NCBI GenBank assembly: GCA_947462335.1
Contig: OX381707.1
Span: forward strand, 12,235,055-12,299,054
From: Harmothoe impar
Lineage: Eukaryota > Annelida > Polychaeta > Phyllodocida > Polynoidae
Length of the DNA: 64,000 nt
Direction of reading: 5' to 3'
Numbering within the stretch: the first letter of the stretch is position 1; every line of letters begins with the position of its first letter. The position numbers and the translations under genes were made by a program. Of the stretch, positions 1-55,361 are shown piece by piece. The notes below the pieces were generated by a model. It saw only the letters and a program-made list of their open reading frames with translations. It searched no databases and had not been told where the DNA came from.

Positions 1-423
1 CACTAAGTCCAAGTCCCTGTAGATAAACTGTAGCACCTGGTGCAATGCCGCGTCGGGATGAAGGGATTGTTCTGCCTGCTTGTGGTAATAGGCCATATCG
101 GCAGGTAGGCGGGCGGCGGTGGCAGGGGCGGAACTCTCGTTCTTTTCACTACGCTCATCAGGAAGAGGAGGAAGGATTGGAGCAGTAGAAGTACTAGCAG
201 CAGCGACTGCAGTAGTAGCAGCGCTAGTACTAGCAGCAGCGGGCACATGATGAAGTAGACCTGCTCGTGATGATTTGTAGAGCGTCTCAGGATCCACGAG
301 CGCTAAGCGTTTGTAGTGTTGTTGCTGCTCTGAGTCCGTCATGGGGACGACGGTGGAGATGACGCTGGCGGTGGCGGTAGTGGTGGTACTGTCGGCGAGT
401 AGGTGTCGAATGAGGTGTCTCAT
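1..423 (-). CDS. Partial ORF of E1, unknown virion-associated protein
   Basis: An open frame of 141 codons starts at an ATG complementary to 421-423 and continues past the left edge without a stop. Its start overlaps the stop of the preceding 110-aa gene as ATGA, the tight packing typical of viral gene clusters. The product starts MRHLIRHLL, has a TLYK-type stretch near residue 48, then an Ala/Ser/Thr-rich low-complexity linker, and returns to ordinary sequence near residue 110. No family is recognised. Its place directly after the ATPase and a small basic protein suggests a structural or morphogenesis role; that is inference. Confidence 0.65.
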   Translation of the reverse strand, partial: MRHLIRHLLADSTTTTATASVISTVVPMTDSEQQQHYKRLALVDPETLYKSSRAGLLHHVPAAASTSAATTAVAAASTSTAPILPPLPDERSEKNESSAPATAARLPADMAYYHKQAEQSLHPDAALHQVLQFIYRDLDLV

Positions 424-752
424 ATACGGAGAATGCTCTTTATAAGCGGTAAGGCCATCCCTATGAGAGCCGGAATGAGGAAACCTCCCTCTTGTACCAA
501 GACGCGTCTCTTTTTTTTGATGGGCGTAGATTTTTTGCCGACCTCCCTCAACACGTCAGCCGATTCTCGAAGCTTGTCCAGTTGTTTGTCGCTGAGCGGG
601 ATGTTCCCTACGAGTAAATTGTGACAGATCTCACTCAACGCTGCGATCAGATCGTCGCTTCCAGAGTCTATTAGATGCGAGCAGTCCTTTGGCGAGCACT
701 TAGCTAAGTGCTTGAGAGTACCAAAGTGTCTTTCGAGTAGATGAGAAGACAT
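420..752 (-). CDS. Small basic protein with C-terminal hydrophobic segment (possible minor virion protein)
   Basis: 110 codons, starting 5 bp after the ATPase stop and overlapping the next gene by ATGA. The first 70 residues are helical and Leu-rich. A basic patch, KKSTPIKKKRRVL, is followed by GGFLIPALIGMALPLIKSIL, a hydrophobic or amphipathic C-terminal helix. Small proteins with a basic patch followed by a Gly-Gly-hydrophobic tail recur next to packaging ATPases in animal Polinton/adintovirus-like elements and resemble adenoviral core or membrane-lytic minor proteins (pX/pVI type) in architecture. The resemblance is by layout and composition, not by demonstrated homology. A DNA-condensing or membrane-active virion component is the best guess. 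Confidence 0.65.
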   Translation of the reverse strand: MSSHLLERHFGTLKHLAKCSPKDCSHLIDSGSDDLIAALSEICHNLLVGNIPLSDKQLDKLRESADVLREVGKKSTPIKKKRRVLVQEGGFLIPALIGMALPLIKSILRI

Positions 753-757
753 TTTTG

Positions 758-1474
758 CTACTGCTTTCTCTTGTTCTTTTTTTTGTCTAGCGGTACGAAT
801 ACCAGCTGAGAGTGTATGGACGTCAAAGAGGAGCGTATTCTCAGATCGTCAGGTGTTGACTGCTTGAAGTCCAGAAGGAGGTATGAGTGAGGTCGCTTGA
901 GTTCATGGGTAAATATACTAGAGAGGGCCGCCGCGTTGGAGGGAAACACCTGGCGAGACAGACTAGCTATTTGCCCCATGTCGCGCGGGTTCTTGAAAAC
1001 GATCATGTAGTGAGCGTTCAGACTCATAGTTCGAAAGTCGGGTGATTTCTGGAATAGGTTCTGAGTGATATATATGACGCTCACGTTCCAGTGATAGGAG
1101 TATTTAGTAAAGATGTCGGCTACCACTTGCTGATTGGAACTGCTCATCAGATCGTCCAATATCAGTAGAGTGTGTGGTCGTAAAGCGTCTTCTGCTACTT
1201 CCACGTCTCCAGCTATAGACTCTTTGCTAGGAAGACCTTCTCTGAATTCCACGTACTGATTTTGCATTTTTTCAAACAGAGGTTGCCACTCGCCGTAATG
1301 GTAAAAAGTCTTTTCCACCGGCGGCGTGACCAAATTGTTCACGTCGCTCAGAAATTGATCCACCAAGCGCAATTTTCCACAACCCAACGGACCGCTAATG
1401 ATACAACTAAAGGGTCCTTGTAGTCGAGCGTCGAAATGAATTTCTGTGAAGAGTTTGCTTTTACTGCTCGACAT
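758..1474 (-). CDS. FtsK/HerA-type genome-packaging ATPase
   Basis: 238 codons, the usual length for Polinton/adintovirus packaging ATPases (A32-like). The Walker A loop lies near residue 28 (SGPLGCGKL), the Walker B strand near residue 104 (LLILDDLM), and a downstream ITQN motif near residue 136 fits the sensor strand of this family. The C-terminus is very basic (KKKNKRKQ). The enzyme is expected to pump DNA into preformed capsids. One oddity is that the Walker A lysine is followed by Leu where Ser/Thr normally binds Mg-nucleotide, so this copy may be weakened or dead although its frame is intact. It heads a tight leftward cluster with the 110-aa protein and the partial ORF. Confidence 0.85.
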   Translation of the reverse strand: MSSSKSKLFTEIHFDARLQGPFSCIISGPLGCGKLRLVDQFLSDVNNLVTPPVEKTFYHYGEWQPLFEKMQNQYVEFREGLPSKESIAGDVEVAEDALRPHTLLILDDLMSSSNQQVVADIFTKYSYHWNVSVIYITQNLFQKSPDFRTMSLNAHYMIVFKNPRDMGQIASLSRQVFPSNAAALSSIFTHELKRPHSYLLLDFKQSTPDDLRIRSSLTSIHSQLVFVPLDKKKNKRKQ

Positions 1475-1718
1475 TTTTTTGTTTTTTTTCAGGACGCGTC
1501 AGAGAGTAGTTGTGTGTCTGACTGTCTGCTGTGTTTCTCACTCGAACGGTCGGTAGTGAATGGTTGTGGAGAAAAGTCAGCCGGTGTCACAGTAGCGGCG
1601 GCAGAAGTGACTTTTTTTTCTTTTTATTTTTGCGATAAAATTCTATTTTCACTCAATAGTCATAAATGTTTGTATCAGACTCCAGAGGAGTCTTATACAA
1701 ATTTTTTTTTTTTAAAAA

Positions 1719-1804
1719 GAAGAGGAGGAGGAGGAGGAGGAGGAGGAGGAGGAGGAGGAGGAGGAGGAGGAGGAGATTAATTTTTTTTTTTTTTTTTTTT
1801 TTTT
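1719..1804. repeat. (GGA)n microsatellite followed by T-run
   Basis: About 55 bp of AGG repeats, then ATTAA and 24 T residues. It lies in the 336-bp gap between the ATPase gene and the next leftward gene of E1. E2 has a comparable (TCC)n tract near its right TIR. Purine-pyrimidine tracts like this can slip during replication; no function is evident. Confidence 0.9.
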
Positions 1805-1810
1805 GATCAT

Positions 1811-2467
1811 TTAGGCAAAGCTCGTCGCTTTGCCGCTTTTTTTTCTATTTCTGTGTTGTGACACGATCGTCTCGAAAAAGCAATAAGGCGTGTGAGCGCG
1901 GCGGTGACAAATACATATTGGAGCGTATGGTTTAAAATAGTGCGTCCCTATCTTCTTCAATTCGGCTGCGTTGCAATATGCGGGATAACAAGTGACGACG
2001 TCGAAACATTTAGAGACCGTGTTCACGTTGGCCACAACGCGCGCCCACAGAGTGGGAGCTGCAGTCGCTCCCAAGAAACCGATCGGCTTGTCGAATCGTT
2101 TCATAGCGCTTATTCTCACTTTATAAGAGGAGGCATGGTGAGGAGAGTAGCGGCGCTCTTTCTTTTCATGAAACGCCCAACGAGTGGGGGCACTGAGAGC
2201 GGCTGTTATGCAATGGTAGAGTCAATACTGTTCTGAGATGACGGCTCTCGGCCATGTCGCTACGTTTTCCTTTTCCGCTCTTGTATAACGACAATTTCTT
2301 TGGCGCTCGGCTTTGCTTTTCTCGAGAATTCGGTACGCTTCAAGAGAAGCGTGAACCTCAACTACGTGACGCTCTCTCCTTTGAGATAAAAAAATAGCCG
2401 GGCAGTTGAGGAGGGCACTTTGTTCGCGTGTCCGTCTTTTAGAAACTCGCGCCCTCTGCGGCGCCAT
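1811..2467 (-). pseudogene. Interrupted E1 ORF of unknown function (single in-frame TGA)
   Basis: An ATG complementary to 2465-2467 opens a frame that runs to a stop at 1811-1813, 218 codons in all, broken only by a TGA complementary to 2222-2224. Both halves are in the same frame and the stretch after the stop stays open, so this is a point nonsense change or a readthrough site, not a frameshift. The N-terminal half is very basic (many RR/KR pairs) and the C-terminal half is rich in Cys, His and aromatic residues. No known family is recognised. It is the first gene of the leftward cluster, with a TATA-like TATAAAA complementary to 2687-2693 upstream. Confidence 0.55.
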
Positions 2468-3302
2468 ATTTCTTTCCCCCGAAACAAAAAAGACTGAGTG
2501 AAAATAAAAATTTTAAAAAACAAAAAGCTCAAAGAAAAAAAATAAGCAATAAGCAGACTCAGCTCGAAATTCCCTGCTGGCGTGATGGCGGTAACTGCAG
2601 GCGGTGGCGGCGGTCGGCTGGCCGGCGGTGGCGGTGTCGGCGGCGATGGTAGAAGGGGGTGTGGAAAGAGAGATGCATCTCAGTCTTTTATAGGACCGGC
2701 GAGAGTTCGACTTAGTCTGACATTTTCAGCTGTCGCATGCTGACCTGCTGCTATCATAAGAGAAAACAAAAGCCCTAATGACGCTTTTCAGCTGGATCCT
2801 TCCACCCACCAGACATGGATCCAGATGGGAGGGTGGTTTAAAATTAATCCGTGTACCGACTGTCATACAATAGTGTAATTAGTTGAAAGCGTGTTACCTG
2901 TATAAAGGATTAGCAGGTCATGGGCTTAGAGTGTGTATAGAAAAACAACTACAGGTAGCGTGAACAAAGCGACCCCCTCCCTTTCTGTCACTCTGTCTGT
3001 GACTAGAGGGCGCGCGTGTGGTAAGCGGCTTAAATCTAAAGAAAAAAAATCACCCTCTCCTGTCGTCAGCAGTCAGCTGGCCGGCGGCTGGAAAATGCGA
3101 TTAGAGGGATGATGAGCGCGTAGTAAGCGACTTAAGGCTAATCTAAAGACCTGCCGTGAGTGGGCAGCTGGCCGGCGGCTTGAAAAAAGGGGGGAGTAAG
3201 GGTATATAAGGGGGAGTGAAACCGTATTCGTCATCGTCAATCATCATTCACTCTACTACTACTACTACTACTACTACCAACACCACCAGCACCACGCCTC
3301 AA
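2468..3302. promoter_or_regulatory. Divergent control region of E1
   Basis: About 830 bp without a convincing ORF, between leftward and rightward genes. A TATAAAA box on the minus strand lies at 2687-2693, and a plus-strand TATATAA at 3203-3209 is about 110 bp before the rightward ATG. GGCTGGCCGGCGG motifs recur at 2615-2630, 3076-3090 and 3168-3180. The stretch 2758-2937 (TTTTCAGCTGGATCC, GACTGTCAT, CTGTATAAAGGATTA, GCTTAGAGTGTGTATA) reappears in the same order in the control region of E2 (18005-18350), where the coding genes differ. Conservation in non-coding sequence suggests shared transcription, replication or packaging signals. Confidence 0.7.
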
Positions 3303-3315
3303 TTTGCAGATCCCC

Positions 3316-3936
3316 ATGATGGAAAGTTGCGACCGTGACATGAAGCGGTATGACGAAGCAGCGCGCGAATGTGAAGCTGATGCTGTAGCCTCTGCTACTG
3401 CTGCTGCTAGTGCTGCTCATCGTGCTCCTGCTGCATTTACTGCGGCTGTTAGTGACGCTGTTTGTGATGACGTTGTTGTTGTTGCCGCTGCGGCTGTGAC
3501 TGCTGCTGTTGCTGCTGCCGATGCAGCTACTCATGCCGCCGATGCCGACGCTGCTGCTGCTGATGCTGTTGCGGCTGCCGATGTCGCCGCTGAAGACGCT
3601 GCTAGTGTACACTCTGCCGCCCTTGCTACTGTCGCTGCTGCTGTTGTTGCTAACGCTCACGCTACTGCTGCTGCAGCTGCTGCTGCTACCGCTGCTGCCG
3701 AGGCTGCTGCCGCTGCTACTGAGGCTGCTGCTGATGCTGCTGATGCTGCTGATGCTAGTAGTCGCGTCGACAAAGAATCGTCATTTGTCACTCTTAAACC
3801 TCCAGTTGAACGCGCGACGGGTAGTAGGGCTACCAACGCGACGGCCAGATGGTGCAAATGGTGTCGTCGCTTTTGCTCGTGCTCTTGCTTTTCTTCCAGC
3901 CCTACCTGCTGCTGCTACAGTATACTAGTGTTATAG
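3316..3936 (+). CDS. Ala-rich low-complexity protein of E1, unknown
   Basis: An ATG at 3316 (a second at 3319) opens a 206-codon frame. Upstream are a TATATAA box at 3203-3209 and a (CTA)n leader. Residues 15-155 are mostly Ala with Asp, Glu, Thr and Val, encoded by GCT/GCN runs. The C-terminus turns basic and Cys-rich (WCKWCRRFCSCSC). It occupies the position that the death-domain gene holds in E2: the only rightward gene, between control region and right TIR. Low-complexity runs also open the other frames, so coding status rests on promoter position and the ordinary-looking ends. An AATAAA lies at 4409-4414 inside the TIR. Confidence 0.5.
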   Translation: MMESCDRDMKRYDEAARECEADAVASATAAASAAHRAPAAFTAAVSDAVCDDVVVVAAAAVTAAVAAADAATHAADADAAAADAVAAADVAAEDAASVHSAALATVAAAVVANAHATAAAAAAATAAAEAAAAATEAAADAADAADASSRVDKESSFVTLKPPVERATGSRATNATARWCKWCRRFCSCSCFSSSPTCCCYSILVL

Positions 3937-4079
3937 TGTTTGAATGAGAACGCGCGTACTTACACATATACACTGTAACAGATGTGCTTTTTGAAAATAT
4001 AATTTTAGCATAACATGGAACTTGTTGTGTTTATTTTCTATATATAAGTTACATAACTTTTTTGTTTATTTGTTTACAA

Positions 4080-4457
4080 ACAGTCACGTGTCACGTGGTG
4101 TTGTTTACAAACAAGAGAGCCACGTGGTGTTGTTTACAAACAAACCCTAAGTAGGTCACTTTACCCTAGTTACCAGAATGCCGGCTTCTGATTGGCTGAG
4201 CCTAAGTAGGTCACGTGACGTAAGTAGGTCACGTTACCATGGTTACCAGAATGCCGGCCTCTGATTGGCTGAGAGCTTCTAAGTAGGTCAGTAGGTCACC
4301 CAGAATGCTGGCTTCTGATTGGCTGAGAGTCCTAAGTAGGTCACGTTACCATGTCAACGGGTCACGTGACCAAATGGCGGCCTCTGATTGGCTGCATATC
4401 GAGTGAGTAATAAACAGTACTTAAGCATAGTCCCGTTCCGATACATACTATACTACT
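4080..4457. repeat. Right terminal inverted repeat of E1
   Basis: The outer 110 bp (GGTCACGTGACCAAATGG ... CATACTATACTACT) match the E2 termini closely. Inside it, three to four diverged units carry CCTAAGTAGGTCACGT, TTACCAGAATGCCGGC and TCTGATTGGCTGAG. These are repeated palindromic E-boxes (CACGTG), inverted CCAAT boxes (ATTGG) and a CRE-like TGACGT. An outward AATAAA is at 4409-4414. The inner part differs from the E2 repeat, which is ETS-site-rich instead. Confidence 0.85.
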
Positions 4458-4463
4458 TATGTG

Positions 4464-6540
4464 ACATGTGACCTGGATTGACCAATCAGAGAGCAGCAGG
4501 GCTGGGTCATGATTTGTTTACAGTAGAATGGTAACCAGGGTAAAGTTTGGTTGCCGGGCTACTTGACCTCTTGACCTCAGTGGATCTAAATAGAGGAACT
4601 GGTGGTTTCACCTTAGGGGATCTTCAGACTGCATTTGAAATAAATATTTTAAATAGTTTGAACAGGTTCAAAAAATTCAAAATAAATAGAAAGCGGTCCC
4701 ACAGCCGGTGGGGCTGTTAGGGGAAATTAGTTGGCATTAGAAAAAAGGTTTTCTAGGTGCTAAATAAAATCCAACAATGCCAAATTAATTTAATTTTAAT
4801 TCATGAGAATTAAAATAAATTCAAAAATGTACTTGAACTTGTTGTTTGGGCTCAGGGCTCAAACTAGGGATTTTTGATTTTGAATTTTTTGGTCTCTAAA
4901 AAAATCCGGTCGGTCTTGTGGAATTTGTGTATTATGATCCATTATGTTTATTAGTCATAACAGGTTGAATAGACCTCAACACGACAATGTGTATTAACTG
5001 CTCCAAGTTAGATAATCACTGATCTCAGAAAAGACACAATGTCAACTGACCCGGTTGAATTCTCCTTTCTCATGCATAGACATTCCTTTGAAATGTATCA
5101 GACACAAAGAGGGGTGTATTTAATGTTGTTATAACATTGATTGATAGCCACATGCTGTAATATTACCATAATTTGGATTGCCCTAAGATATGCTGAGCTG
5201 GAGACCAAGACTTGTGCCCTTTAGTTCGTAGCTTCACCACCAGGTGTCCTTGTTGCGGCGTTCCCCCCTTTGGGGGATGCATGTTCTTCATCTCTGGATG
5301 AACTACAGCCTTCTATTTAGGTACATTTCTCGTCACGATATGAAATCGGCCCTGCTTCATAAGGCATTTAGACAATCCACAAAGTCTTGTAATATAAGTT
5401 GTATACCGGCATACTATAACTGATCTACCTATCATCGATGGTTTAAACAGAGACAGTGGCACTGTGAGTGTGACAGGCTGATTTATCACTTAGTCACTTA
5501 TCACTTATGTAGCCTTCTATAGTAATTAAGGATTGCCTTTAAATACTTCACTTAGTTAGGGAATTATCATTAAATAATGCATTCAACAGAAGGGGGGGGG
5601 CAAATTCAACCCAAAATTATTTCTATGAAAATCATTCTACCGACCCTACCATACTTTTATCTTGCCAGTTTTATCATTGAATGTTGTTCTACTGATGATC
5701 TAATCAATAAGTTATTTACGAGATAGAGCTCTACGTGTATGTCATTACAGTAACTGCTATAGTATGAAATTGTTTGAATAAAGAACACTAGGTACACCCA
5801 ACTTCTACTATTAGGCCCCTAGACAGATAAAATCGACAAATCGATAAGAGCCTAGTGAAAAGGGACAAGACCTATTTTTTAGAATCGACAAATGACATAG
5901 GCATTCCATAAAATCAACAAGTGACATGAGGGTTGGTGACAATGGACAAGCTCCTTTTCTTAAGATCAACAAGGGACATTGGCATCTCGTAAAATCGACA
6001 AGTGACACAGCACCCCCCCCCCCCAGTCTGGGCCCTACTGTTTATGTCTTTTTATAATATACACTCTCAGCACATTCATATTTCAAAACGTTTCTAAAAA
6101 GTTGAATAGAAAAAGTGAGGGCACCAGACTGTTTTTTTTGCCCATTTTGACATAACTTAAAACCTCGTGTGTTAACCCATATTTGTCAAAGAAAAACTCC
6201 CGTGCAGTTGGGGATCCAAGCATGTATAATGTCAATATTTAACTTTGACCTGACATGGTGACCAATACTTGATATGAAGGTTGTTTTAGTGTAAGTTGAG
6301 TGTGCTGAATCCGATTACGCCATGTGTAAAGTTCTATCTAGGTCGGAACAAGGTCAAAAACAAGGTCAAAGGTCACAATCTGCTATGAAATAGAACTTGC
6401 AAAGAGTACATGTTAAGATTTGATTTTGAGCGCTATTCATCTTACGGAGTCATTCTAATATGTATGCTCCATCACCTTACTGACTATGGTTGACCTTGGT
6501 TTGGTTAAAGGTAATTTAAACAAGATTAAACATGGAAAAT
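4464..6540. other. Host intergenic DNA, no gene seen
   Basis: AT-rich sequence without a supported ORF, splice-flanked exon or RNA gene. 5815-6012 holds a degenerate tandem repeat of about 58 bp around AAATCGACAAGTGACA; the short ORF over it is a by-product. A C-tract lies at 6011-6024. Confidence 0.6.
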
Positions 6541-7070
6541 GCTTATGGCTGTGTCTCACGAACTAGGGCCAATGTTTTTTTCTCTGACCGGGTGCCATCT
6601 CTGACGGGGTGCCATCTCTGACTGGGTGCCATCTCTGACCGGGTGCCATCTCTGACCGGGTGCCATCTCTGACTGGGTGCCATCTCTGACCGGGTGCCAT
6701 CTCTGACTGGGTGCCATCTCTGACTGGGTGCCATCTCTGACCGGCATGAATAGAAACGATTTATTTAGGGTAGATGTAGATAGAATTTGCCTGAAAGGTT
6801 AATGGATGTTATAACTCTTTACAGTAGTAATTAGTTGCCTATTTTTATCATCATCTGCCCTATATTAACAGTTTTTATTCAGGCCGGTCAGAGATGGCAC
6901 CCAGTCAGAGATGGCACCCCGTCAGAGATGGCACCCGGTCAGAGATGGCACCCGGTCAGAGATGGCACCCGGTCAGAGATGGCACCCGGTCAGAGATGGC
7001 ACCCTGTCAGAGATGGCACTCTGTCAGAAACGAAAACATTGGTCCAAGTTCGTGAGACACAGCCATATGC
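6541..7070. mobile_element. TIR element built from an inverted minisatellite pair
   Basis: The ends GCTTATGGCTGTGTCTCACG (6541) and its inverted partner ending at 7070 form terminal repeats of about 40 bp. Just inside them, the left arm has nine 17-bp units TCTGACCGGGTGCCATC (6583-6735, plus a partial) and the right arm has about eight units in inverted orientation (6885-7028). The 140-bp centre has no ORF. The reading frames over the arrays are repeat translations. The arms can pair almost perfectly. A non-autonomous DNA transposon is likely; no transposase is present. Confidence 0.8.
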
Positions 7071-11315: not shown

Positions 11316-11321
11316 AGTGTA
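11316..11321. repeat. Left target-site duplication of E2 (AGTGTA)
   Basis: AGTGTA directly precedes the terminal AGTAGTATAG of E2 and is repeated exactly after its right end at 20790-20795. Six-bp duplications are diagnostic of Polinton/Maverick-type integration. Confidence 0.9.
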
Positions 11322-11738
11322 AGTAGTATAGTATGTATCGGAACGGGACTATAGTTAAGTACTGTTTATTACTCAATCGACCTGCAGCCAATCAGAGGCC
11401 TCCATTTGGTCACGTGACCGGAAGTGACCTACTTAGGGGATTAGTGGTGCATTCTGGGTAACCCTGCAGCCAATCAGAGGCCACCATTTGGTCACGTGAC
11501 CGGAAGTGACCTACTTAGGGGATTAGTGGTGCATTCTGGGTAACCTACTGACCTACTTAGGGGACCGGAAGTGACGTCATATGACCTAATTTAGGATCAC
11601 GTGACCGGAAGTGACCTGATGAGTCACGTGAGCGGAAGTGACGTCACATGACCTAATGGCTGACCGGAAGTGAGTGACCTCATTGAGGATCACGTGACCG
11701 GAAGTGACCTGATTGATCACGTGAGCGGAAGAAGAAGT
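11322..11738. repeat. Left terminal inverted repeat of E2
   Basis: About 417 bp, nearly identical to the inverse of 20372-20789 apart from rearranged unit numbers around 11450-11560. It is built of repeated modules containing CACGTGACCGGAAGTGAC: an E-box, an ETS site (CCGGAAGT) and often TGACGTCA (CRE), with inverted CCAAT (CCAATCAGAGGCC) near the outer end. AATAAA reads outward near the tip on the minus strand. Confidence 0.92.
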
Positions 11739-11954: not shown

Positions 11955-13295
11955 TCATATCTCTAAAGGACTCGTTGTCACACCGTCAGAATGCACGCGA
12001 CGCTTATAATACAAGTAGCGCACGCCGTCTTTCTTTATGGTGTAGGTGACCATTTTGTTTCGCACCACTTTGAAGTTTCTATTTACAGCAATGAGAGTTT
12101 TTCGTTGGCGAAGAACATCCAAGAAGTCGTCTGGTTCCTGAGGGTTTTGTTTCTTCTGTACGCCTTTTGCACTCCATTTTTTGGATTTTCTTTCACCGGT
12201 GTCGCTGACTCGATCGTAGCAAATGTAAGTCTTAGGGTTGAGACTTAGGATCCCGTCACCTTCCCACTCCGCTTTCATAAGCCCCGAAGTTCTCAGATCG
12301 TGAAGGTACCGTCTCTCACAACATCCGCCGGGCGGCGGACACCATTCTCGCACTCTTTCCGTTTTTGTCTTCACGAAAAGCTCTAAGTGATCGTCGCACA
12401 CCGCTGTCGGAAGCCACTTTCGTTTCTCTCTGAAGTACGTCTCTCTCAGGCGAGGTTTGACTAGGTCATCCAACGTGTCACCGCTGAGAGCCATGTAAAG
12501 ACTGTCGGTGTCCATTTGACAAAGGGCATAATCGCGCCGATCGACGAATCTATCCAAGAAGTCGTATGTGAACTCTAACATTTTCAACTTCGCGTACTGG
12601 TATACCATGAACCCTATTTGAATAGGGAGGTTGTTGTTGACTGTTTTCGGTTGTAGTTCGACTTCAAACAGATCGGAACTCAACTCGGACGCCTTTTTGA
12701 AGCGCCACGAATTGGCCAATAGTTCGAACTTCCGACTGTCAGTGTATCTCACCGCCGTGTGTTTTTCTTTGTTGCAGATTGTTTTACCGTACGTAGCGTT
12801 TCCCATTAACTTGTAACAGTCTGACAGAATTTTCTCGTTCTCGTTCACGTTGCCACGTCTTCGCGCCGCCGTTACTTCGTCCGCGAAACCGGCAAAGGAG
12901 CGTTTAGGTAGGTATTCTACCACCAGCTGCACTTTGGTGACTATCAAACCGTGCTCTAAATACCACTTGAAAAGCGGCGTTCCCAAGAGAATATTTTTTC
13001 CGTGGTAACTCCCTATCAGACATCTCTGAGGCGTGTTCAACAGCTTTTCTTCCTGCGCAAAGTCTGACATGTGAGGTCCTATGTCCGATTTTGAAACGGT
13101 CGCGTTCTTGAAAATGGGGGTCATTTCTTCGAAGTAGTCTCGTAGGTGAGGCGGCGTAGTGATGTCCACTTGAACTAAACCGAACATTTTCTCCTCTTTC
13201 ACAGCGGAAAGGATGTCGCTCTCGCTCATCGCGTTTCGAGACACTTTCAAAGCGTCAACCTTCCAGCGTTGCTGGGAGGCCTTGACCCGCTCATC
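11955..13295 (-). CDS. Protein-primed family B DNA polymerase, C-terminal part
   Basis: This is the continuation, in the same frame, of the ORF at 13296-16091. The frame stays open straight after the TGA at 13296-13298. Counting from the Leu (TTG) codon at 13250, residues 147-155 are KLMGNATYG (polymerase motif B, K-x3-N-x2-YG) and residues 247-250 are DTDS (motif C, the catalytic aspartates), with TTPPHLRDYF near residue 31 as often seen in Polinton polymerases. No ATG precedes the conserved region, so this half cannot be a separate gene. AATAAATAAATAA follows directly after the stop on the minus strand and would serve as poly(A) signal. The product would copy the element from a protein-primed end. 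Confidence 0.88.
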   Translation of the reverse strand, partial: DERVKASQQRWKVDALKVSRNAMSESDILSAVKEEKMFGLVQVDITTPPHLRDYFEEMTPIFKNATVSKSDIGPHMSDFAQEEKLLNTPQRCLIGSYHGKNILLGTPLFKWYLEHGLIVTKVQLVVEYLPKRSFAGFADEVTAARRRGNVNENEKILSDCYKLMGNATYGKTICNKEKHTAVRYTDSRKFELLANSWRFKKASELSSDLFEVELQPKTVNNNLPIQIGFMVYQYAKLKMLEFTYDFLDRFVDRRDYALCQMDTDSLYMALSGDTLDDLVKPRLRETYFREKRKWLPTAVCDDHLELFVKTKTERVREWCPPPGGCCERRYLHDLRTSGLMKAEWEGDGILSLNPKTYICYDRVSDTGERKSKKWSAKGVQKKQNPQEPDDFLDVLRQRKTLIAVNRNFKVVRNKMVTYTIKKDGVRYLYYKRRVHSDGVTTSPLEI

Positions 13296-16091
13296 TCAAC
13301 GCCTCATCTCTCGCCATTCGCACTCCCACACGACGACCAGCTTGTGACCTAGCGCTTTCAAGTAAGCGCTTACTCTGGTCGTTCTGTCGCGTCTCTCCTC
13401 TCTCAGTGAAGCGCACTGATATCGGTGCGACGGTATGCACTCGTGAGCGTGGAACCAACACCCGTGAAACTGGAAAACCGTATTAGAGGCCGCGTGAAAC
13501 CCGTCCACGCGAATTCTCCGCCAGCCTACAACCATCTCGCCGCCGTTCAAAGCGTGGCGCAGTTTCACGTCGCGGTCGTGCTCTACGAAGCGTAACCACT
13601 CCAAAGCGCTGTGAGAGTTTCTTTGCCTAATTTCGGGCTTGAACTCGGTCTCGGGCCGTCTCACCGCGTAATAACCCGTGCAGTGCGCTTCGCTCATGCA
13701 GCGCAAGTACAGAGAGTTAGCGTCTAGTCCTAGGATGTGTTGGCACGGTCTCGCTTCTTCGCCGTACTTGTGCTCCCTTATCCGCGTGGTGCCCTTCTCG
13801 TGAAATCTATGGAAGATGATGGAAGGACCGCCGACTAGATTTTCTTTGATCAGAGCGTGGAGGACGGCGTCGAACTGGGGGAACATTGTGAACGCGTCTT
13901 CTAGGTTTTGGAAGAGGAACCGTAAAGTCAAACCGGCGAGAGAAACTCCGTCTTTCAACATGTCAATGCCGCGATCTTGGAAAAATTTAGCGTGATTTTT
14001 CAGAGCTTCTATGAAAGGTTTGACGTCTTTGTTGTTGTAGTGGATCAAGTAGTCTTCCATAGTTTGCATCTTCTCGTCGGACCAAACTTTCTGACATGCG
14101 GCGTAGTCGGATTCGGACATTTTGACGCCCGTCAGCTCGCTGTCGAAAGCCGATCTCGGTGGCAGCGTTCTGTTTGCCAGTTTCCTGGTAGACGTCATCC
14201 ATTCGTAAGGAAAGTGACCTTTCTCTTCGTTCCTGGTGAAAGCTCGCAAATAGGTCGCGTAGTTGTAACCGGGTGCCAAATAGTTGACTACGTCCAAGAA
14301 AACCGTGTGCTGTGTGTAAACCGCCAAGTATTGATTGCTTCTCTTTATGACGCTGAATTCTTTGTTTCTTCGGTCTCCGGAGGCGAAGAACGAGTGAAGG
14401 CGTATTTTGATCAGGTTCAAGTCGTAACGCCCCGAGTTGAAGCCCACGACTGGAGCTTGACGGATGTATCTCAGAAGACGCTTCTTCAGTTGAACTAACG
14501 GGTGTCTGGTCTGAGCCGCAGCGAAGCCGCCTGGAGAAGGGGTGAACGTCGCCTCCTCCAGCAGGAGAGCTTCACCTATCGCCGCATCTAACTTCGCTAA
14601 GGTCGGTCGGTAAAGTTCTAGCACAGCTTCCCCGATGACTTTGGCGTTCTCGTTTATGTGATTTAAAACTCGGTCCAACAAGGGGTCGGAATCTGCGTCG
14701 GATTCTCTGACGAAGCAGACGGGCCCCTCCCACCCCGGAAAGTCGGATGCGACGCTAGCCGACAAAGGGACGTGATCCCACAGCAGGGACACGTGTTCCG
14801 TCGACGGTTCTTTGCACGGTCTGAAGAAAGCCTCGAAATCGAAGGCGATCTTGTAAGGGTAGATTCCGGAATGTCCGTCGGGGGGAAAAATGGAGAAGTC
14901 TGCTAGCGCTTCGAAAATCGTTCTCGAATTTTGGTAGATGCCACCTACGTAGCGCAACTTGACTTGTCGGCAAGAGGAAAGCTGGTTCCTGTGTCTCTTC
15001 AGCAAGAACTCGGTGGTGAACGCCGCCTTACACTTGCAACATTCGTATATGCCCGCGTACGCGTTGAAGTCCGTGACGAGAGAGACGTGCAAACCGCCTT
15101 TCGCCGTCAGGTGTAGGTTGACTTTACCTCGGGCGGCCAGAGTTCTGGAAGGCGGTCTGATCAGAGTAACGCGTCTTCTCAACTTCCGCCCCGGCACTTG
15201 ACGCGACGCGGTGTAAACCGCTATTTGTACGTCAAACAAGTTCTCTAACGCGGGTAAGTCGCGGATGTTCAGACCCGGAAAGGATTCAGGTGTGGCAGCG
15301 GGACAGAACTGACGTAACAAATCTGAAGCGCGCTTGCTGGTGTTGTATAAGTGAAAGGAAATGCAGCGGAAGATGCAGAGGTTGTCCTTGTTGGGAAAAT
15401 CTAACACGCCGCTTCTCTTTCCAACTCGACCGGCCTGAGTGATCCTACCGCCTATGGGGAATTCCCCCGGTCCCATGTAAACGCAAATGTTCAAATTGGT
15501 AGGAAAAAGAATGTGCCACTTGGTGTCAGCGTCGCAAAGTTTCCGTACTTCCTCGCAAGCGACGGTGTTTTCCATCTTTGAGAGGAGCTCTTCCAAAGTT
15601 TCTGAATTAGTTATAGTAGGGAGCGGTTGTATGAGAGTTGCGTTGTTCTGGGAGGCGTGAAAGTAGCGCAGTTTGCTCTTGTCTTCTCTGTGTTGTAAGA
15701 GTAAGCCTACCGAGAAACCCACTTTGTATCTGAATCTTTGTGTCAAGTGAATGCGACGCATAGTATCTACAGCGTCACTCAACTCGCCGGTTGGTAGCCT
15801 GAAGTTTGTTACACTCACGCGAGTCCCGTGCATCCTGACACCCGTTTGTATCGCAGGCCAATTCGCCGTGAACGTTTCCTCCCCGTTCGGTACAGCACAT
15901 ATGCGCGGAGGGACGGTCACCCCGTCCAGAGATTCGCGTCGACAGGCGATCTTTCGGCAATCGCCTTCGCCGCATAGAGGGCAAAACTTAGGTACTACTC
16001 TACAATTTTTTACGTGTCTCTCGTGGTTGTACGGTCTTTTAAACATTTTGAAACACTTTTCGCATACGTACTGTGTCATGTTTTTTTTCAC
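13296..16091 (-). CDS. Protein-primed family B DNA polymerase, N-terminal part (ends at in-frame TGA)
   Basis: 931 codons. Residues 10-30 form a C2H2-like zinc finger (CEKC...HVKNC) and 351-374 a second. Residues 236-341 resemble an OTU-like fold (DNLCIFRCISFHL ... HVSLVTD). The proofreading exonuclease motifs are FDFE at 417-420, FNSGRYD at 551-557 and YNNKD at 685-689. Polymerase motif A is DANSLY at 790-795, and HGCWFHAHEC at 876-885 is typical of Polinton polymerases. The frame ends at a TGA (13296-13298) shortly before motifs B and C, which follow in the same frame. A CGA-to-TGA change would explain it, or stop-codon readthrough. As it stands the element's own polymerase is split. Confidence 0.9.
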   Translation of the reverse strand: MKKNMTQYVCEKCFKMFKRPYNHERHVKNCRVVPKFCPLCGEGDCRKIACRRESLDGVTVPPRICAVPNGEETFTANWPAIQTGVRMHGTRVSVTNFRLPTGELSDAVDTMRRIHLTQRFRYKVGFSVGLLLQHREDKSKLRYFHASQNNATLIQPLPTITNSETLEELLSKMENTVACEEVRKLCDADTKWHILFPTNLNICVYMGPGEFPIGGRITQAGRVGKRSGVLDFPNKDNLCIFRCISFHLYNTSKRASDLLRQFCPAATPESFPGLNIRDLPALENLFDVQIAVYTASRQVPGRKLRRRVTLIRPPSRTLAARGKVNLHLTAKGGLHVSLVTDFNAYAGIYECCKCKAAFTTEFLLKRHRNQLSSCRQVKLRYVGGIYQNSRTIFEALADFSIFPPDGHSGIYPYKIAFDFEAFFRPCKEPSTEHVSLLWDHVPLSASVASDFPGWEGPVCFVRESDADSDPLLDRVLNHINENAKVIGEAVLELYRPTLAKLDAAIGEALLLEEATFTPSPGGFAAAQTRHPLVQLKKRLLRYIRQAPVVGFNSGRYDLNLIKIRLHSFFASGDRRNKEFSVIKRSNQYLAVYTQHTVFLDVVNYLAPGYNYATYLRAFTRNEEKGHFPYEWMTSTRKLANRTLPPRSAFDSELTGVKMSESDYAACQKVWSDEKMQTMEDYLIHYNNKDVKPFIEALKNHAKFFQDRGIDMLKDGVSLAGLTLRFLFQNLEDAFTMFPQFDAVLHALIKENLVGGPSIIFHRFHEKGTTRIREHKYGEEARPCQHILGLDANSLYLRCMSEAHCTGYYAVRRPETEFKPEIRQRNSHSALEWLRFVEHDRDVKLRHALNGGEMVVGWRRIRVDGFHAASNTVFQFHGCWFHAHECIPSHRYQCASLREERRDRTTRVSAYLKALGHKLVVVWECEWREMRR

Positions 16092-16108
16092 TCAGTTACC
16101 AACTACTT

Positions 16109-16250
16109 AGCCGTCTAACTATCTATCTATCTATCAATCTATCTGTCTATCTATCTATCTATCTATCTTTCTGTCTGCTGTCTGTGTATCCGTCTGTCTG
16201 TCTCATACAGCGTACGTCAAACGCTGTGTGTGTGTGTGTGCGCGCGTGAG
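16109..16250. repeat. CTAT/CTGT and GT microsatellites
   Basis: (CTAT)n with CTGT variants at 16120-16200 and (TG)n at 16224-16240, in the 170-bp spacer between the polymerase start and the next gene of E2. No function is evident. Confidence 0.85.
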
Positions 16251-16263
16251 CGTTGAGCGTCTC

Positions 16264-17880
16264 TCATTCCGAATCTATGCCGAGATATTTCAGAATGATC
16301 TCTGTTTTGTCATCCAACTCTTTGAGCGCTCTGGCGGACAGCGTCACCCCCTGCTGTGTGGGTTTTTTGTCAGGACCTTCGTACTTGCGCACGTGGACGA
16401 GGTTCTTACCGCTGTAGTAGCTCACAGCTGCGTACACTTCGCCCTCCTCATCCAGCACTGCGAACCAGGGGGTGTGATTAGGTCTTCCTTGCGCGGCCGC
16501 TGTGTCGCGTATGCGCACCACTGCGCGGATATCGGCGATGCGTGCTATTAGCTCGCGCAGCGCGTCGGCCGTGAAGTGCACTCGCTTGCTTCTGGTCAGA
16601 GACGCCTCTTTCACCTGGCCGTCTTTTGTGTAGCGCGGCCTCCTAGACAGTCTAGCCAAGTCCTCCCAGATCTCCAGCGTCAAAGCTCCGTCTAAGCAGA
16701 ACTCTAACCCGAGAAGACGGGAGAAGGTTTTCTCTGCTTCTTCTCGTCCATCTCGTTCTTTTTCTTGTATTTTTCTCTTCTTACTAGGCCTTGTTGTTCT
16801 GGAACTCACCTTAGAACGTTTCACACCCGCAGGATGAGTAACACCATCAGCGTGAGCTGAATCAGCAGCAGAACCGATAGCAGGAGCAGCGTCAGCGCTG
16901 GTGGTATCCGAGGCCTCGTTGTTGGAACAGAGCAGCCACACGCCGTCGGTGCTGAGTGTAGCGGTAGAAGATGCAGCGCCGCCGCCCTCGTAAGGTGGCG
17001 GTGAGGGCAGTCGCCACGGACCGGACGGGGCGCTACTAGTGGAAGTGAGGTCGAAAGGTCGAAGAGGGGAGCCGAAAAACGTACCGCCCACCCCTTTCCC
17101 TTCGGGTTCTTCGTACGCCTCGTCGTCAGCGTCCTTCTCTGTCTCACCCTGTTGCTGCTGCTCCTCCTCCTCCTCCTCTTCTTCTCGGTTTAGGGGCTGA
17201 GTGTCCGAATAGCTGTCACTCTCAGCGCGAGCGGCGTCGAGGGCGTCGGTCGATGTAGTGGTGGAGGAGAGGGGCTGTGCAACGTGCGGCAGGTCATCAA
17301 AGTCATCAACAGTAGTGGGGAGGTAAAAACCCGGTTGCCAGTACTGCGCTGTGCCAGGAGCGTTGTCGTCAGTAGTAGTAGCGGTAGCAGCAGGTGCAGC
17401 AGAAGCAGCAGCAGCAGCAGCAGCAGCAGACGCAACAGTAGCAGGCGCAGCAGCCTCAGCAGGCGCAGCCGTAGCAGGCGCAGCGGTAGCAGGTGCAGCA
17501 GCAGCAGCAGCCACAGCAGCCGCAGCACGAGGATCACCAGCAGGCGGGGCGGCAGTAGCAGCGGCAGTAGCAGCGGCAGCGCGCTTAGCAGCAACGTGTA
17601 CCGTCGCGAGTGTAACAACGTCGCTAGCACGACGACTACTACCAGTAGTACTACTACCACTACTACTACTACTACTACTACTAGTACTACTACTGCTACT
17701 ACTACTGCTACTACTACTACTACTGCCGCGAGCGCTTGCTACAGCGGGAGGGTGATAAGACCAAGCGGCTGCGGCGGTAGTCTCATTTTCAGTAGCAAGA
17801 GGAGGCACTGACGCTAAACGAGCGCTGTTCCGCGTAGTCTTCTTGTTCTTGGACGGCGCTAGGTGTTGTCTTTTGCTCAT
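16264..17880 (-). CDS. Low-complexity protein with C-terminal PC4-like domain
   Basis: The start is an ATG complementary to 17878-17880 in a good context (ACCACCATGA), 60 bp after a TATATAA box (minus strand, 17940-17946), giving 538 aa. The N-terminus is basic; then come poly-Ser (residues 50-80), Ala/Pro/Thr runs (100-175), an acidic EEEEEEEEQQQQ stretch, and an NLS-like PSKKRKI near 365. The last 70 residues (GEVYAAVSYYSG ... VRKYEG ... GVTLSARALKEL) have the strand-strand-strand-helix layout of the PC4/p15 ssDNA-binding coactivator domain. A partial second copy may precede it (VHFTADALRELIARI). A role in ssDNA binding during protein-primed replication, or in transcription, is inferred. 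Confidence 0.72.
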   Translation of the reverse strand: MSKRQHLAPSKNKKTTRNSARLASVPPLATENETTAAAAWSYHPPAVASARGSSSSSSSSSSSSSTSSSSSSSSGSSTTGSSRRASDVVTLATVHVAAKRAAAATAAATAAPPAGDPRAAAAVAAAAAAPATAAPATAAPAEAAAPATVASAAAAAAAASAAPAATATTTDDNAPGTAQYWQPGFYLPTTVDDFDDLPHVAQPLSSTTTSTDALDAARAESDSYSDTQPLNREEEEEEEEQQQQGETEKDADDEAYEEPEGKGVGGTFFGSPLRPFDLTSTSSAPSGPWRLPSPPPYEGGGAASSTATLSTDGVWLLCSNNEASDTTSADAAPAIGSAADSAHADGVTHPAGVKRSKVSSRTTRPSKKRKIQEKERDGREEAEKTFSRLLGLEFCLDGALTLEIWEDLARLSRRPRYTKDGQVKEASLTRSKRVHFTADALRELIARIADIRAVVRIRDTAAAQGRPNHTPWFAVLDEEGEVYAAVSYYSGKNLVHVRKYEGPDKKPTQQGVTLSARALKELDDKTEIILKYLGIDSE

Positions 17881-18892
17881 GGTGGTGACTGTAGAGAGCA
17901 GCAAAAGAATGAGTGAGTGAATGGAGGTTTCCAGGCCCCTTATATACGCCTTCTCGCTTCTAGAGCTAAGCTACTTACTGACCCTGTTCAGCTGCCGCCG
18001 GCTGGCCGGCGGCCATTCACAAAGAGAAACAAAAGACATAAGGCATGACGTTTTCAGCTGGATCCCTTTCCCCCCTTTCGAGAGATCGACTGTCATGAGC
18101 TAAGCCGCTTACCACCCTGTTCAGCAATTCAACGCGCATTAGCTGTATAAAGGATTAAGCGGTTGCTGCCGTCGACTGACCGGCGGCCATTCACAAAGAC
18201 ATAAGGTATGACGTTTTCAGCTGGATCCCTTTCCCCTCTTTTTTTTGAGGGATCCACTGTCATGAGCTAAGCCACTTACCACCCTGTTCAGCAATTCAGC
18301 GCGCGTTAGCTGTATAAAGGATTAACGGTGATGAGCTTAGAGTGTGTATACAAAAAAAACTACAGGAGGCGTGTGGCGTGAAGCAGGACCCCCCCCCCCC
18401 TAAGACGAACGTGTCTGTCTGTGAGTAGAGGCGTGTGCATGTGGTGCGCGACTTAAGTGTAAGACAAAAAAAAATCACCACCTCCTGCCGTGGTGAGTAG
18501 ACCGGGCCGGCCAGGCGGCGGCCGGCTAGTTCAATAGGGAGGGATGACAGCTGACTAAGGCTGTGCATGAAAAAAATCCCATTTTCACCTGACCTCTGAC
18601 GTTTGTTACAATGAATGTCAGAGGGAGGGAGACGTCCTCAGGTAGGGGGTAGGAGGTAAGGCTATGGATGAGGAAGAAACACCGTTTTCAGCTGGTCTCC
18701 ACGGATAGCGATGACATACCCCTCGTCATCTAAGCTCTTAAGGAGCAGAGCGGCTGAAAAAGCGTCATGCGGACAGGTCGCTAGACAGCTGGAGTGCTGT
18801 TGGAAATGGGATTAAACTCCCTCTGTATAAAAGCTCTGATTTCTGTTGGAAAAAAACCATATCGCCTCTGACCACAGTAACGTCTACTACCA

Positions 18893-18955
<63 letters not shown>

Positions 18956-18968
18956 ACGACGAGACGAG
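17881..18968. promoter_or_regulatory. Divergent control region of E2
   Basis: It separates leftward and rightward genes. The minus-strand TATATAA is at 17940-17946 and the plus-strand TATAAAA at 18826-18832. Two direct copies of about 150 bp (18006-18162 and 18180-18328) carry CCGGCGGCCATTCACAAAG, TTTTCAGCTGGATCCCTTT, ACTGTCATGAGCTAAGCC and CTGTATAAAGGATTAA. 18312-18560 then matches E1 3038-3200 motif by motif (GCTTAGAGTGTGTATA, AAAAAATCACC, GGCCGG). The 5' leader of the rightward gene contains a (CCG)n tract at 18911-18953. The control sequence is therefore shared with E1 while the flanking genes are not. Confidence 0.75.
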
Positions 18969-19709
18969 ATGGCTCAAGCTATTCCACTTTCAAGCTCGCC
19001 TTCACCGCCTTGTCCACCTGAAAAAAAGTTAATGCGGCTTGACGACGTGAGACGCGCGAGGCAGACCGATGGGGAGAACAGAGAGGTAGGACAGCGGCGG
19101 TTAGCCTATAGCGACGCCTTGCTTCGTCAACTAGGTAAAGAGTTGAGCGGCTGTTGGAGAGAGTTGGGCAGTAGCTTAAAAGTTACCGCCGCCCGTATGG
19201 ATGCTCTAGTAGAGCGCAGTGTCAAGACACCGGAGGAGCTGTGTACGGCGATGTTCCGAGTCTGGTGGGGTGAAACCCCGCATCGTCATAGATGGGGAGA
19301 GCTCGGTCGCGTCTTCACCCGCATTAGACGCGTGGAACTGTTGGCTCAGTGGATGTCCCTTCTCCACAGACAGGGGTTGGATTTCGAAAACCCCGACTCG
19401 CGCGCGATGCATAAGCACTTGGGCACCCTCGGCAGACGTCTAGGTAGCAGGTGGAAAGAGGTGGGGGACCATTTAAAATTGTCGCCTGAGAGGTTAGATA
19501 AGATCGCTGAAGAATGCGAATACGGAGGAAGTCCCGCTGAGTGGGCCTTCCGAGTGTTGAAAATGTGGCAAGATGAAGCTGACGGTGCCGGCGGTACACC
19601 TTTTGAACTCCTTCGAGTGTTGACTGAGGACATGGGAAAGTTTGACCTCGGCATCGCGATATTACTTGACTTTATCAAGCAAGAAACAACGAGAACGACG
19701 GACATGTGA
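18969..19709 (+). CDS. Tandem death-domain protein
   Basis: An ATG at 18969 gives 246 aa. The frame is open further upstream, but that part is a (CCG)n-encoded poly-Arg run inside the expected leader, and the TATAAAA at 18826 fits this start. After a Pro-rich N-terminus come two death-fold units, about residues 50-133 and 148-237. Each has the spacing LG..L...W.ELG..L....ARMDAL / RW.EVGDHLKLSPERLDKIA, then an acidic P.E loop, a Trp-containing helix (VWW, KMW) and a final T...L helix. Death domains assemble apoptosis and innate-immune complexes, so a decoy or adaptor acting on host cell-death signalling is the natural inference. No enzyme domain is attached. It is the only rightward gene of E2. 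Confidence 0.8.
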   Translation: MAQAIPLSSSPSPPCPPEKKLMRLDDVRRARQTDGENREVGQRRLAYSDALLRQLGKELSGCWRELGSSLKVTAARMDALVERSVKTPEELCTAMFRVWWGETPHRHRWGELGRVFTRIRRVELLAQWMSLLHRQGLDFENPDSRAMHKHLGTLGRRLGSRWKEVGDHLKLSPERLDKIAEECEYGGSPAEWAFRVLKMWQDEADGAGGTPFELLRVLTEDMGKFDLGIAILLDFIKQETTRTTDM

Positions 19710-19858
19710 ATTGTTGTGTTTTATTTTCATACGTCTTCTTTATTAGTAAGTAAAAAAAAATATCATAACAATTAAGACGCACGCCCTCTTAAAGTGTCAC
19801 TTCCTCCAGTCGCAGCTGATCGCCTCATCGAGGCACGTGATAAACAAAAAAAAATGAA

Positions 19859-19898
19859 GAGACACGCTTCTTCCTCTCGAGAGGAAGAAGCGTGTCTC
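19859..19898. other. Perfect 40-bp palindrome in E2
   Basis: GAGACACGCTTCTTCCTCTC followed without spacer by its exact inverse. It lies 150 bp after the death-domain gene, in the non-coding stretch before the right TIR. It would form a cruciform or RNA hairpin. It has no T-run suited to Pol III termination. A nicking or resolution site, or a transcript 3'-end hairpin, is possible. Confidence 0.85.
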
Positions 19899-19949
19899 TC
19901 GATTGAAATCTTTTTCTTTTCTTTTTTTCTTAAAAGAGACAAACGCCCC

Positions 19950-20297
19950 TTAGAGTGCCCCCCCACCCCCCTAGAGTGCCCCCCTCCCCCCTCCCCCCCT
20001 CCCCCCCACCCGCCCCATGCATCCTAAAAGCGCCCCCCTCCCCATGCATCTTAAAGGGGCCCCCCTCCCCTTCCCTCCCCTCCCCTCCCCTCCCCCCCCT
20101 CCCCCCCCTTATACACTCTAAAGAACGCTTCTACCTAGTTCAATAAGTCACTTCCAGTCGCTCGTAAAACAATAAAAAATGAAAAAAAACAAAAACTTAT
20201 ATCGTAGTGTTTTTTATTAGTTTACCGAAAAAAATAAGAGACTCGCCTCCTCCTCCTCTCCTTCTCCTCCTCCTCCTCCTCCTCCTCCTCCTCCTCC
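19950..20297. repeat. C-rich and (TCC)n tracts of E2
   Basis: 19955-20110 is made of CCCCCCTCCCC runs with three repeats of CCCCATGCATC(C/T)TAAA-like phrases. 20243-20297 is (TCC)n. AATAAA at 20171-20176 is a plausible poly(A) signal for the rightward transcript. No coding evidence. Confidence 0.75.
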
Positions 20298-20371
20298 AAA
20301 AAAAAAGATATCACATTTTAAAGCGCGTGACCCCTTAAAGACGCTCATCTCTTCATTAAGTCGCGTGACGT

Positions 20372-20795
20372 CACTTCTTCTTCCGGTCACGTGATCAATC
20401 AGGTCACTTCCGGTCACGTGATCCTCAATGAGGTCACTCACTTCCGGTTGGCCATTAGGTCATGTGACGTCACTTCCGGTCACGTGACTCATCAGGTCAC
20501 TTCCGGTCACGTGATCCTAAATTAGGTCATATGACGTCACTTCCGGTCCCGTAAGTAGGTCATATGACGTCACTTCCGGTCCATAAGTAGGTCATATGAC
20601 GTCACTTCCGGTCACGTGACCAAATGGCGGCCTCTGATTGGCTAACTAGGTCACGTGACGTCACCACTAATCCCCTAAGTAGGTCACTTCCGGTCACGTG
20701 ACCAAATGGAGGCCTCTGATTGGCTGCAGGTCGATTGAGTAATAAACAGTACTTAACTATAGTCCCGTTCCGATACATACTATACTACTAGTGTA
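20372..20795. repeat. Right terminal inverted repeat of E2 plus target duplication
   Basis: The inverse of 11322-11738, ending CATACTATACTACT at 20789 and followed by the AGTGTA duplication (20790-20795). It carries at least seven CTTCCGGT (ETS) and eight CACGTG/TGACGTCA sites, two CCAAT-type TCTGATTGGCT boxes and an outward AATAAA at 20741-20746. Confidence 0.92.
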
Positions 20796-41213: not shown

Positions 41214-41282
41214 CTTCAACACGGCCCGGTCTCTGACACGAGTGACACGAGTGACACCTCTATCGCTGAAGCCGGCGTCCCT

Positions 41283-55319: not shown

Positions 55320-55361
55320 ACCGCCCACGGTGTCAGTCATACCCCAGCCAGCTGGCAGGAC

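Follow-up and report, generated by a model that had tools for sequence, protein, structure and literature searches.

A stretch of 64,000 nucleotides from the genome of the polynoid annelid Harmothoe impar (assembly GCA_947462335.1, 1.51 Gb searched; contig OX381707.1, in the following C4, positions 12235055-12299054; hereafter the window) contains two Polinton-like elements, E1 and E2, which have their outer terminal inverted repeats (TIRs) and a control region in common and carry different genes. E1 and E2 are probably two segments of a single genome of adintovirus type (Eupolintoviridae, Polinton/Maverick) that complement each other and integrate separately. A previous sequence-only reading of the window had proposed such a two-segment virus, and the present analysis supports it: capsid, ATPase, protease and integrase genes were identified in complete E1 and no polymerase was detected there, while E2 shows the reverse; the status as a virus is putative.

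E2 is a closed element of 9,468 bp (window positions 11322-20789) with the ends AGTAGTATAG/CTATACTACT and TIRs of ~417 bp that are 90.5% identical to one another. E1, the terminus of which at 4457 is identical in kind, extends leftwards beyond the window. Its exact terminal 28-mer occurs once, in correct orientation, in the 10 kb left of the window and not at all in a further 8 kb searched, which gives a complete element of 10,515 bp (C4:12228997-12239511), the left 6,058 bp preceding the window. The elements are delimited in the window by the following features:

1..4457, no strand: right part of E1 (terminal motif at 4457 and matching left terminus outside the window)
4021..4457, no strand: right TIR of E1 (438 bp, 98% identical to the left TIR of E1)
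11316..11321, no strand: left target site duplication of E2, AGTGTA
11322..11738, no strand: left TIR of E2
20373..20789, no strand: right TIR of E2
20790..20795, no strand: right target site duplication of E2, AGTGTA

The sequence-only reading had suggested extending the assembly to the other TIR of E1 and had predicted a target duplication TATGTG there. The terminus was found and the genes up to it are listed below; the window copy, however, has TGTGGG at this position, although other E1 copies do have duplications. Directly outside the right end of E1 (4458-4560), TIR-like motifs (GACC, CCAATCAGAG) were noticed by eye. With no target duplication and a TIR-like flank, the window copy of E1 may stem from insertion into an older element or from recombination with one. 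Both E2 TIRs (11322-11738, 20373-20789) are crowded with CACGTG, TGACGTCA and CCGGAAGTGAC motifs, which we take to resemble host transcription factor sites. A divergence of 12.6-17.6% between the left and right TIRs of E2 over 240 bp is inflated by tandem units and was not used for dating.

Leftwards from its control region, E1 encodes the ATPase, p110, p395, an rve integrase with a chromo-like end, penton, a basic protein of 141 amino acids, hexon (major capsid protein, MCP), an adenovirus-type protease and an open reading frame (ORF) of 100 amino acids. For the part lying within the window, the following were identified, families X and Y being one-piece relatives in the same genome that are described further below:

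1..423, minus strand: N-terminal part of the p395 gene, the rest lying left of the window (tblastn with p395 of another copy; order as for p290/p342 in families X and Y)
420..752, minus strand: p110, a small protein with hydrophobic C-terminus (ORF; 42% identical to the X and Y counterparts, E 7e-22 and 5e-23)
758..1474, minus strand: genome-packaging ATPase of the FtsK/A32 type (ORF; 46-47% in comparison with its X and Y counterparts)
2450..3315, no strand: control region between the divergent transcription units (homologous to that of E2; TATA boxes at 2692, minus strand, and 3203, plus strand)
3316..3936, plus strand: rightward gene, alanine-rich with a Cys-rich tail (ORF)

The packaging ATPase, which the sequence-only reading had noted along with a small virion-like protein, is the gene at 758..1474; complete E1 has hexon, penton, protease and integrase genes as well. 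The ATPase matches the Adeno_IVa2 and Pox_A32 profiles, both below their cut-offs; ATPase and penton are homologous with those of families X and Y, the penton being putatively named from gene position and likeness. The integrase of another copy matches rve at 46.7 bits (cut-off 32.6) and Chromo at 19.6 bits, below the cut-off of 25.1, and its family Y homologue reaches 36.1 bits for Chromo, above that cut-off. The penton and integrase genes are frame-broken in the window copy and open in another. Since comparison of the MCP sequence with the PDB gave no meaningful sequence match, the protein was identified through its fold: the model (predicted local distance difference test score, pLDDT, 79.5) matches double-jelly-roll MCPs of PBCV-1 and mavirus (E to 2e-15) and of an iridovirus, by which the E1 hexon is predicted to be a double-jelly-roll MCP. 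The protease matches Peptidase_C5 at its cut-off (21.3 bits). The rightward gene has no Pfam match, and its frame is open for 162-212 codons in all eight copies inspected, the window copy included. That a polymerase gene might lie left of the window had been considered as an alternative; in complete E1 none was detected by tblastn with five PolB proteins (that of E2 and four public relatives).

E2 contains the following genes and control region:

11955..16091, minus strand: polymerase B gene (covered by a single tblastn stretch of 1,363 residues; P0035, a public homologue, is 98% identical)
16264..17904, minus strand: PC4-like protein with a long low-complexity N-terminal part (PF02229, E 1.1e-4, 22.0 bits, below the cut-off of 25)
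17905..18968, no strand: control region (homologous to that of E1; TATA boxes at 17946, minus strand, and 18826, plus strand)
18969..19709, plus strand: death-domain protein with two death-domain stretches (PF00531, 31.1 bits, cut-off 22.6)

The polymerase gene of the window copy has one in-frame stop, stop-free copies being present elsewhere in the genome; in another copy PF03175 is matched at 27.7 bits, above the cut-off of 25.8. An OTU-like N-terminal domain was recognised by eye only (the domain is named in sections of PMC11071296). By its sequence, E2 PolB is classed as a putative type B protein-primed DNA polymerase, the priming itself being a prediction. The death-domain protein is homologous to that of family Y (E 2e-10), and its closest solved chains by sequence are RIPK1 death domains, a weak match (E 0.012). 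No morphogenesis or integration gene was detected in E2 by tblastn with the ATPase, penton, integrase, MCP, protease and p395 of E1 and three public MCPs. The gene content previously claimed for E2 (polymerase, PC4-like and death-domain genes, no morphogenesis or integrase gene) was borne out, the PC4 match being below the Pfam cut-off.

In the window, E1 and E2 have an identity of 93-94% over the outer 98 bp of their TIRs, in agreement with the common outer TIR and termini claimed before. Over 20 E1 and 20 E2 ends, compared in blocks of 20 bp, no variation occurs in the outermost 20 bp, and as far in as 80 bp E1 and E2 diverge from one another by 0-4.5% per block, much as copies of the same element do (0-4.6%). 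At 81-140 bp from the ends, 5.5-12% divergence between the elements contrasts with 0-2% within, and beyond 140 bp eight blocks have data, of which six show 20-57% divergence between E1 and E2 and two show 1-3%. E2 ends differ among themselves by up to 31% beyond 140 bp, owing to poor alignment of tandem units and of left with right ends. Like ends combined with unlike interiors would be expected of sequences recognised by a single replication, integration or packaging apparatus, and, as in segmented genomes, common terminal sequences are found on E1 and E2 together with different genes.

Homology of the control regions and the layout of leftward cluster, control region and single rightward gene were likewise found in both elements as claimed. 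The control regions align in two blocks, 2725-2807 with 17987-18075 (77% identical) and 2889-3066 with 18301-18491 (74%, 108 bits; best of 200 shuffles 26.5 bits). A further match between E1 and E2 (3614-3756/17422-17567) was discarded as simple-repeat or low-complexity sequence. Beyond the TIRs, the ~25% diverged control region and this low-complexity match, the interiors of E1 and E2 were found to have nothing in common. The control-region match runs in one orientation, such that the late cluster of E1 falls on the side of PC4 and PolB of E2; E1 and E2 are therefore not two simple deletions from a single parent.

Both elements are abundant in the genome and near-identical among the scored copies. 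First-look candidates (2,283 to 7,226) differ by query and are not copy counts, and the scored places are the best-scoring ones. The E1 control region yielded 2,283 candidates (40 scored, all 99-100%), the E1 ATPase 2,477 (150 scored, all 98-100%, frames open in 150/150), a distant MCP 2,644 (97 scored) and E2 PolB 5,650 (97 scored, all 99-100%), the PolB frame comprising at least 1,368 codons in 67 of the 97 places. Two E1 ATPase copies (C5:72478455 and C5:72480314) lie 1.9 kb apart, a spacing that indicates local duplication inside or between E1 copies.

Ends were sought for 18 E1 copies (the window copy, ten from the ATPase list and seven found by control-region DNA) and 17 E2 copies (the window copy and 16 from the PolB list). 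Of these, 15 E1 and 14 E2 copies showed both ends and measure 10,127-11,043 and 9,307-9,587 bp, respectively, from end to end. Perfect 6-bp target duplications flank 12 of the 15 E1 and all 14 E2 copies; of the other three E1 copies, one has a duplication off by one base, and the window copy and one on C3 have none. Six copies, three of each element, were examined that lack one or both ends: no element sequence is present at the expected end at C4:84664975 (E1) and C5:63777246 (E2), the terminal motif is absent from the end stretches of two further E1 copies and one further E2 copy, and in the E2 copy at C4:1409340-1410340 the expected right end is occupied by E2 polymerase sequence in the same orientation, hence a tandem or rearranged E2. 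All 15 end-to-end E1 copies are too short to accommodate a polymerase gene, and all 14 E2 copies too short for the capsid cluster; by their lengths, 0 of 29 units can hold the core genes of the other element. Full-length E1 copies with a polymerase, or single elements with both gene sets and these termini, had been named as findings that would contradict two segments. Neither was encountered, the former among the 15 end-to-end E1 copies and the latter in the whole sample; families X and Y carry both gene sets but have other termini.

Families X and Y were obtained by a search with the distant PolB P0047, for which 34 candidates were scored and one copy of each family was read in part. Family Y (C21:7585767-7604334; 18,568 bp, target duplication GATAAA) combines in a single unit PolB, a PC4-position gene, two more genes, a death-domain protein (50.9 bits), ATPase, p151, p342, integrase, penton, basic protein, MCP and protease. 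In family X (~17.3 kb, the far end probably lying just past the stretch read) these core genes recur, penton being spread over two ORFs; a death-domain gene was not noticed in the one copy read in part. The PC4-position genes of X and Y are named by position, as they match neither Pfam PC4 nor the E2 protein. Among the places scored, the PolB frame is stop-free in 11 of 12 that are full-length for X and in all 20 for Y, and PolB identity to P0047 is 70% for X, 60% for Y and ~44% for E2. E1 proteins are 25-49% identical to those of X and Y, with the late genes in matching order. By this homology and gene order, together with the death-domain match of E2 to Y, E1 and E2 add up to the core genes of a single such virus, distributed over two units. 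With E1 and E2, the termini of X and Y share only the first 9-10 bases and short inner motifs, and no counterpart of the E1/E2 control region was found in what was read of X and Y; having other terminal sequences, X and Y are relatives rather than carriers of the E1/E2 termini. In a search with P0038, from a sister lineage of E2 on a 17.6-kb contig, the best 34 of 7,226 candidates were scored, all of them 51% identical and of E2 frame length, with 27 of the 34 stop-free. Since all are E2-like, there is no closer one-piece family among the places scored.

Among public sequences, six MCPs are 71-93% identical to that of E1 (next 38%), three PolBs are 98, 76 and 69% identical to that of E2 over the last 484 residues (next 54%), and three death-domain proteins are 100, 78 and 55% identical to that of E2. 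PolB relatives were also found in named animals. The contigs of the 98% and 69% PolB relatives, 9,882 and 9,859 bp in length, come close to E2 in size, and these two relatives form a clade with E2 and the 76% relative (contig of 4,271 bp) in the PolB tree; the sister clade is located on contigs of 17,632, 16,628 and 9,603 bp. Such contigs would fit an old split lineage that descends from a one-piece ancestor. E1-like MCPs and death-domain relatives reside on contigs of 0.8-3.8 kb, which are uninformative on genome layout. No relative was found in IMG/VR with the E1 MCP, an MCP alignment or a PolB alignment, and a PHROGs search gave generic transposase, polymerase and endonuclease matches only.

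Another family of the same genome, B/C, with the termini AGTAGTATGGGG, came up in the search with the distant MCP and is pertinent to the alternatives. A TIR search gave 26 candidates, all scored, which are the 26 ends of 13 elements: three of 19.8, 20.3 and 19.8 kb, one of 34.5 kb (TIR 77%) and nine of 7.6-10.7 kb (example: C12:7106598-7114473). MCP matches are of family-B type in the three ~20-kb forms and of family-C type in eight of the nine short forms. The one short form read in part contains MCP and an ATPase-like gene, and no PolB or integrase was detected in it; a 9-kb part of one long form has just a short PolB-like stretch. An element complementary to the short forms was not found. 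Family B/C is a possible intermediate between one-piece and split genomes; mixed-length forms are readily seen at such a low copy number, but thousands of copies would make them difficult to spot. The same distant-MCP search yielded another MCP family, A, which (C4:9710221-9711522 and C11:63387705-63389006; frame of 458 codons, 38% to P0011) lies outside all B/C elements.

Several observations weigh against E1 and E2 as segments of one virus. In family B/C of this genome, long forms exist alongside short ones that have the same TIR, which makes a rare full-length parent of E1 and E2 a real alternative, and such a parent could escape, as the copies saturate the searches and those measured are mostly best-scoring ones. 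The PolB frame falls short of 1,368 codons in 30 of the 97 places scored with E2 PolB, and 7 of the 34 places scored with P0038 have a stop. E1-E2 pairs within 100 kb number 4, versus 3.2 expected, in a test that covered 144 of the 150 ATPase and 65 of the 97 PolB places on contigs C1-C6 and is weak, as partners need not be sampled. The closest pair is that of the window (PolB and ATPase 11.2 kb apart, the elements themselves separated by 6.9 kb of other DNA). With proximity not above chance, the elements do not insert as pairs; E1 and E2 insert independently. A simple pair of complementary deletions does not account for the layout of E1 and E2. The public contigs are suggestive only, as one of 9.9 kb could be a collapsed repeat or a fragment and many PolB relatives are found on short contigs. 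Virions, packaging and co-transmission are conjectural.

That E1 and E2 are both deletion derivatives, mass-amplified non-autonomous forms of a rare or lost full-length parent supplying all functions, is unlikely, even though family B/C offers a precedent in its size classes and the end-to-end measurement covered a small share of the E copies. No long copy occurs among the 15 E1 and 14 E2 copies measured, the interiors are without common sequence apart from the limited matches described, and frames are open in all 150 ATPase and 27 of 34 PolB places, though these are best-scoring ones; moreover, derivatives fed by a parent would have no need of complementary intact cores. Somewhat less probable still is parasitism by just one of the two, with E2 as a satellite that borrows integrase and capsids from E1, and E1 borrowing a polymerase from families such as X or Y. 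These families do coexist with open PolB frames, and the first-look candidates for E2 (5,650) exceed those for E1 (2,283-2,644), though the counts stem from different queries and are not copy numbers. E1 and E2, however, have the outer ~80-100 bp in common, far more than the 9-10 terminal bases and inner motifs that X and Y share with E1, as well as a control region that was not seen in the parts of X and Y read. Ordinary unrelated Polinton relics with ends alike through descent alone are highly improbable. Related termini are general in the group, sections of PMC8097293 describing (AG)3 or (AGT)2 ends and 6-bp duplications for vertebrate Mavericks, but the outer 80 bp are barely diverged between E1 and E2, whereas the termini of X, Y and C differ, and the copies are near-identical with complementary core genes.

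If E1 and E2 are segments of one genome, the E2 polymerase would copy both by protein-primed initiation at the common termini, as suggested by the class to which this enzyme belongs, that of protein-primed polymerases, and by the lack of variation in the terminal bases. The integrase of E1 would insert both, given that its gene is on E1 only and both elements have common ends and 6-bp duplications. Capsid proteins and ATPase of E1 would package both, in separate or common particles, each segment being well below the 17-19 kb of the one-piece relatives. Common promoters, to judge from the control region, may hold both gene sets in step, and the E2 death-domain protein may, by its domain, restrain host cell death. 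The split could have occurred in a one-piece ancestor of ~17-19 kb resembling families X and Y, after which the interiors would have evolved apart for long while the shared termini were kept by common recognition. The more specific proposal of an obligately bipartite integrating double-stranded DNA virus, with separate linear segments recognising each other's termini and belonging to an old lineage present in other samples, has about an even chance of being correct; its last part follows a hint from the ~9.9-kb contigs with 98% and 69% identical polymerases. The odds that E1 and E2 form an infectious bipartite virus are likewise about even.

The remainder of the window contains further features. 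Between E1 and E2, a large inverted repeat of 17-bp tandem units (6536-7075; arms of ~190 bp, 93% complementary) is perhaps a separate hairpin-like repeat or transposon. Two NACHT-LRR genes are located at 24830-27712 and 45196-47898, the N-terminal part being CARD-like by eye. Two retroelements (40611-44368 and 54276-58297) encode a reverse transcriptase followed by a tyrosine-recombinase-like ORF, as in DIRS elements; the latter ORF matches Phage_integrase below the cut-off in the element at 54276-58297 and was recognised by eye only in that at 40611-44368.

Like members of the Eupolintoviridae, E1 and E2 jointly possess PolB, an rve integrase with chromo-like end (chromodomain), a double-jelly-roll hexon, penton, adenovirus-type protease, ATPase, (AGT)2 TIRs and 6-bp duplications. 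Known members of this family are single linear units, whereas the core genes of E1 and E2 are divided over units of ~10.5 and ~9.4 kb, and neither E1 (10.1-11.0 kb) nor E2 (9.3-9.6 kb) alone holds all core genes in one unit of 15-20 kb. Families X and Y agree with E1 and E2 in core genes and late-gene order but are of one piece with other terminal sequences. The short forms of family B/C bear an MCP like E1; unlike in the E1 and E2 copies measured, ~20-kb forms with the same TIR coexist. We know of no double-jelly-roll hexon or integrase in bidnaviruses or Vesanto virus. These viruses, the segmented PolB viruses described in sections of PMC8363768 and PMC11071296 (bidnavirus-like, single-stranded DNA), have a related PolB and a segmented genome but a parvovirus-type capsid. 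Polintons are described as units of 15-20 kb in sections of PMC4028283, Eupolintoviridae (renamed from Adintoviridae, according to part of PMC12451622) are given 15-40 kb in a table of PMC12567637, and Drosophila examples of 13.3-14.6 kb appear in part of PMC8363768. Sections of PMC4028283 further report 9 of 72 Polintons without MCP, protease and ATPase, interpreted as concerted loss; E2 resembles these, but its missing genes sit on E1 with the same termini. In the open-access literature searched, no report of a two-segment Polinton or adintovirus was found.

A core gene set divided over two Polinton-class units would be unlike known members and very unusual for this kind of DNA virus. Polintons have been treated as self-contained single units and capsid-less ones as decayed, for which E1 and E2 offer another reading. 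If this is true, an integrating DNA virus of this class would be able to split its genome, and the presence of one-piece, long-plus-short and split forms within a single genome would provide a concrete route from one-piece to segmented organization. Capsid-less or polymerase-less Polintons elsewhere would then merit a re-check for missing halves.

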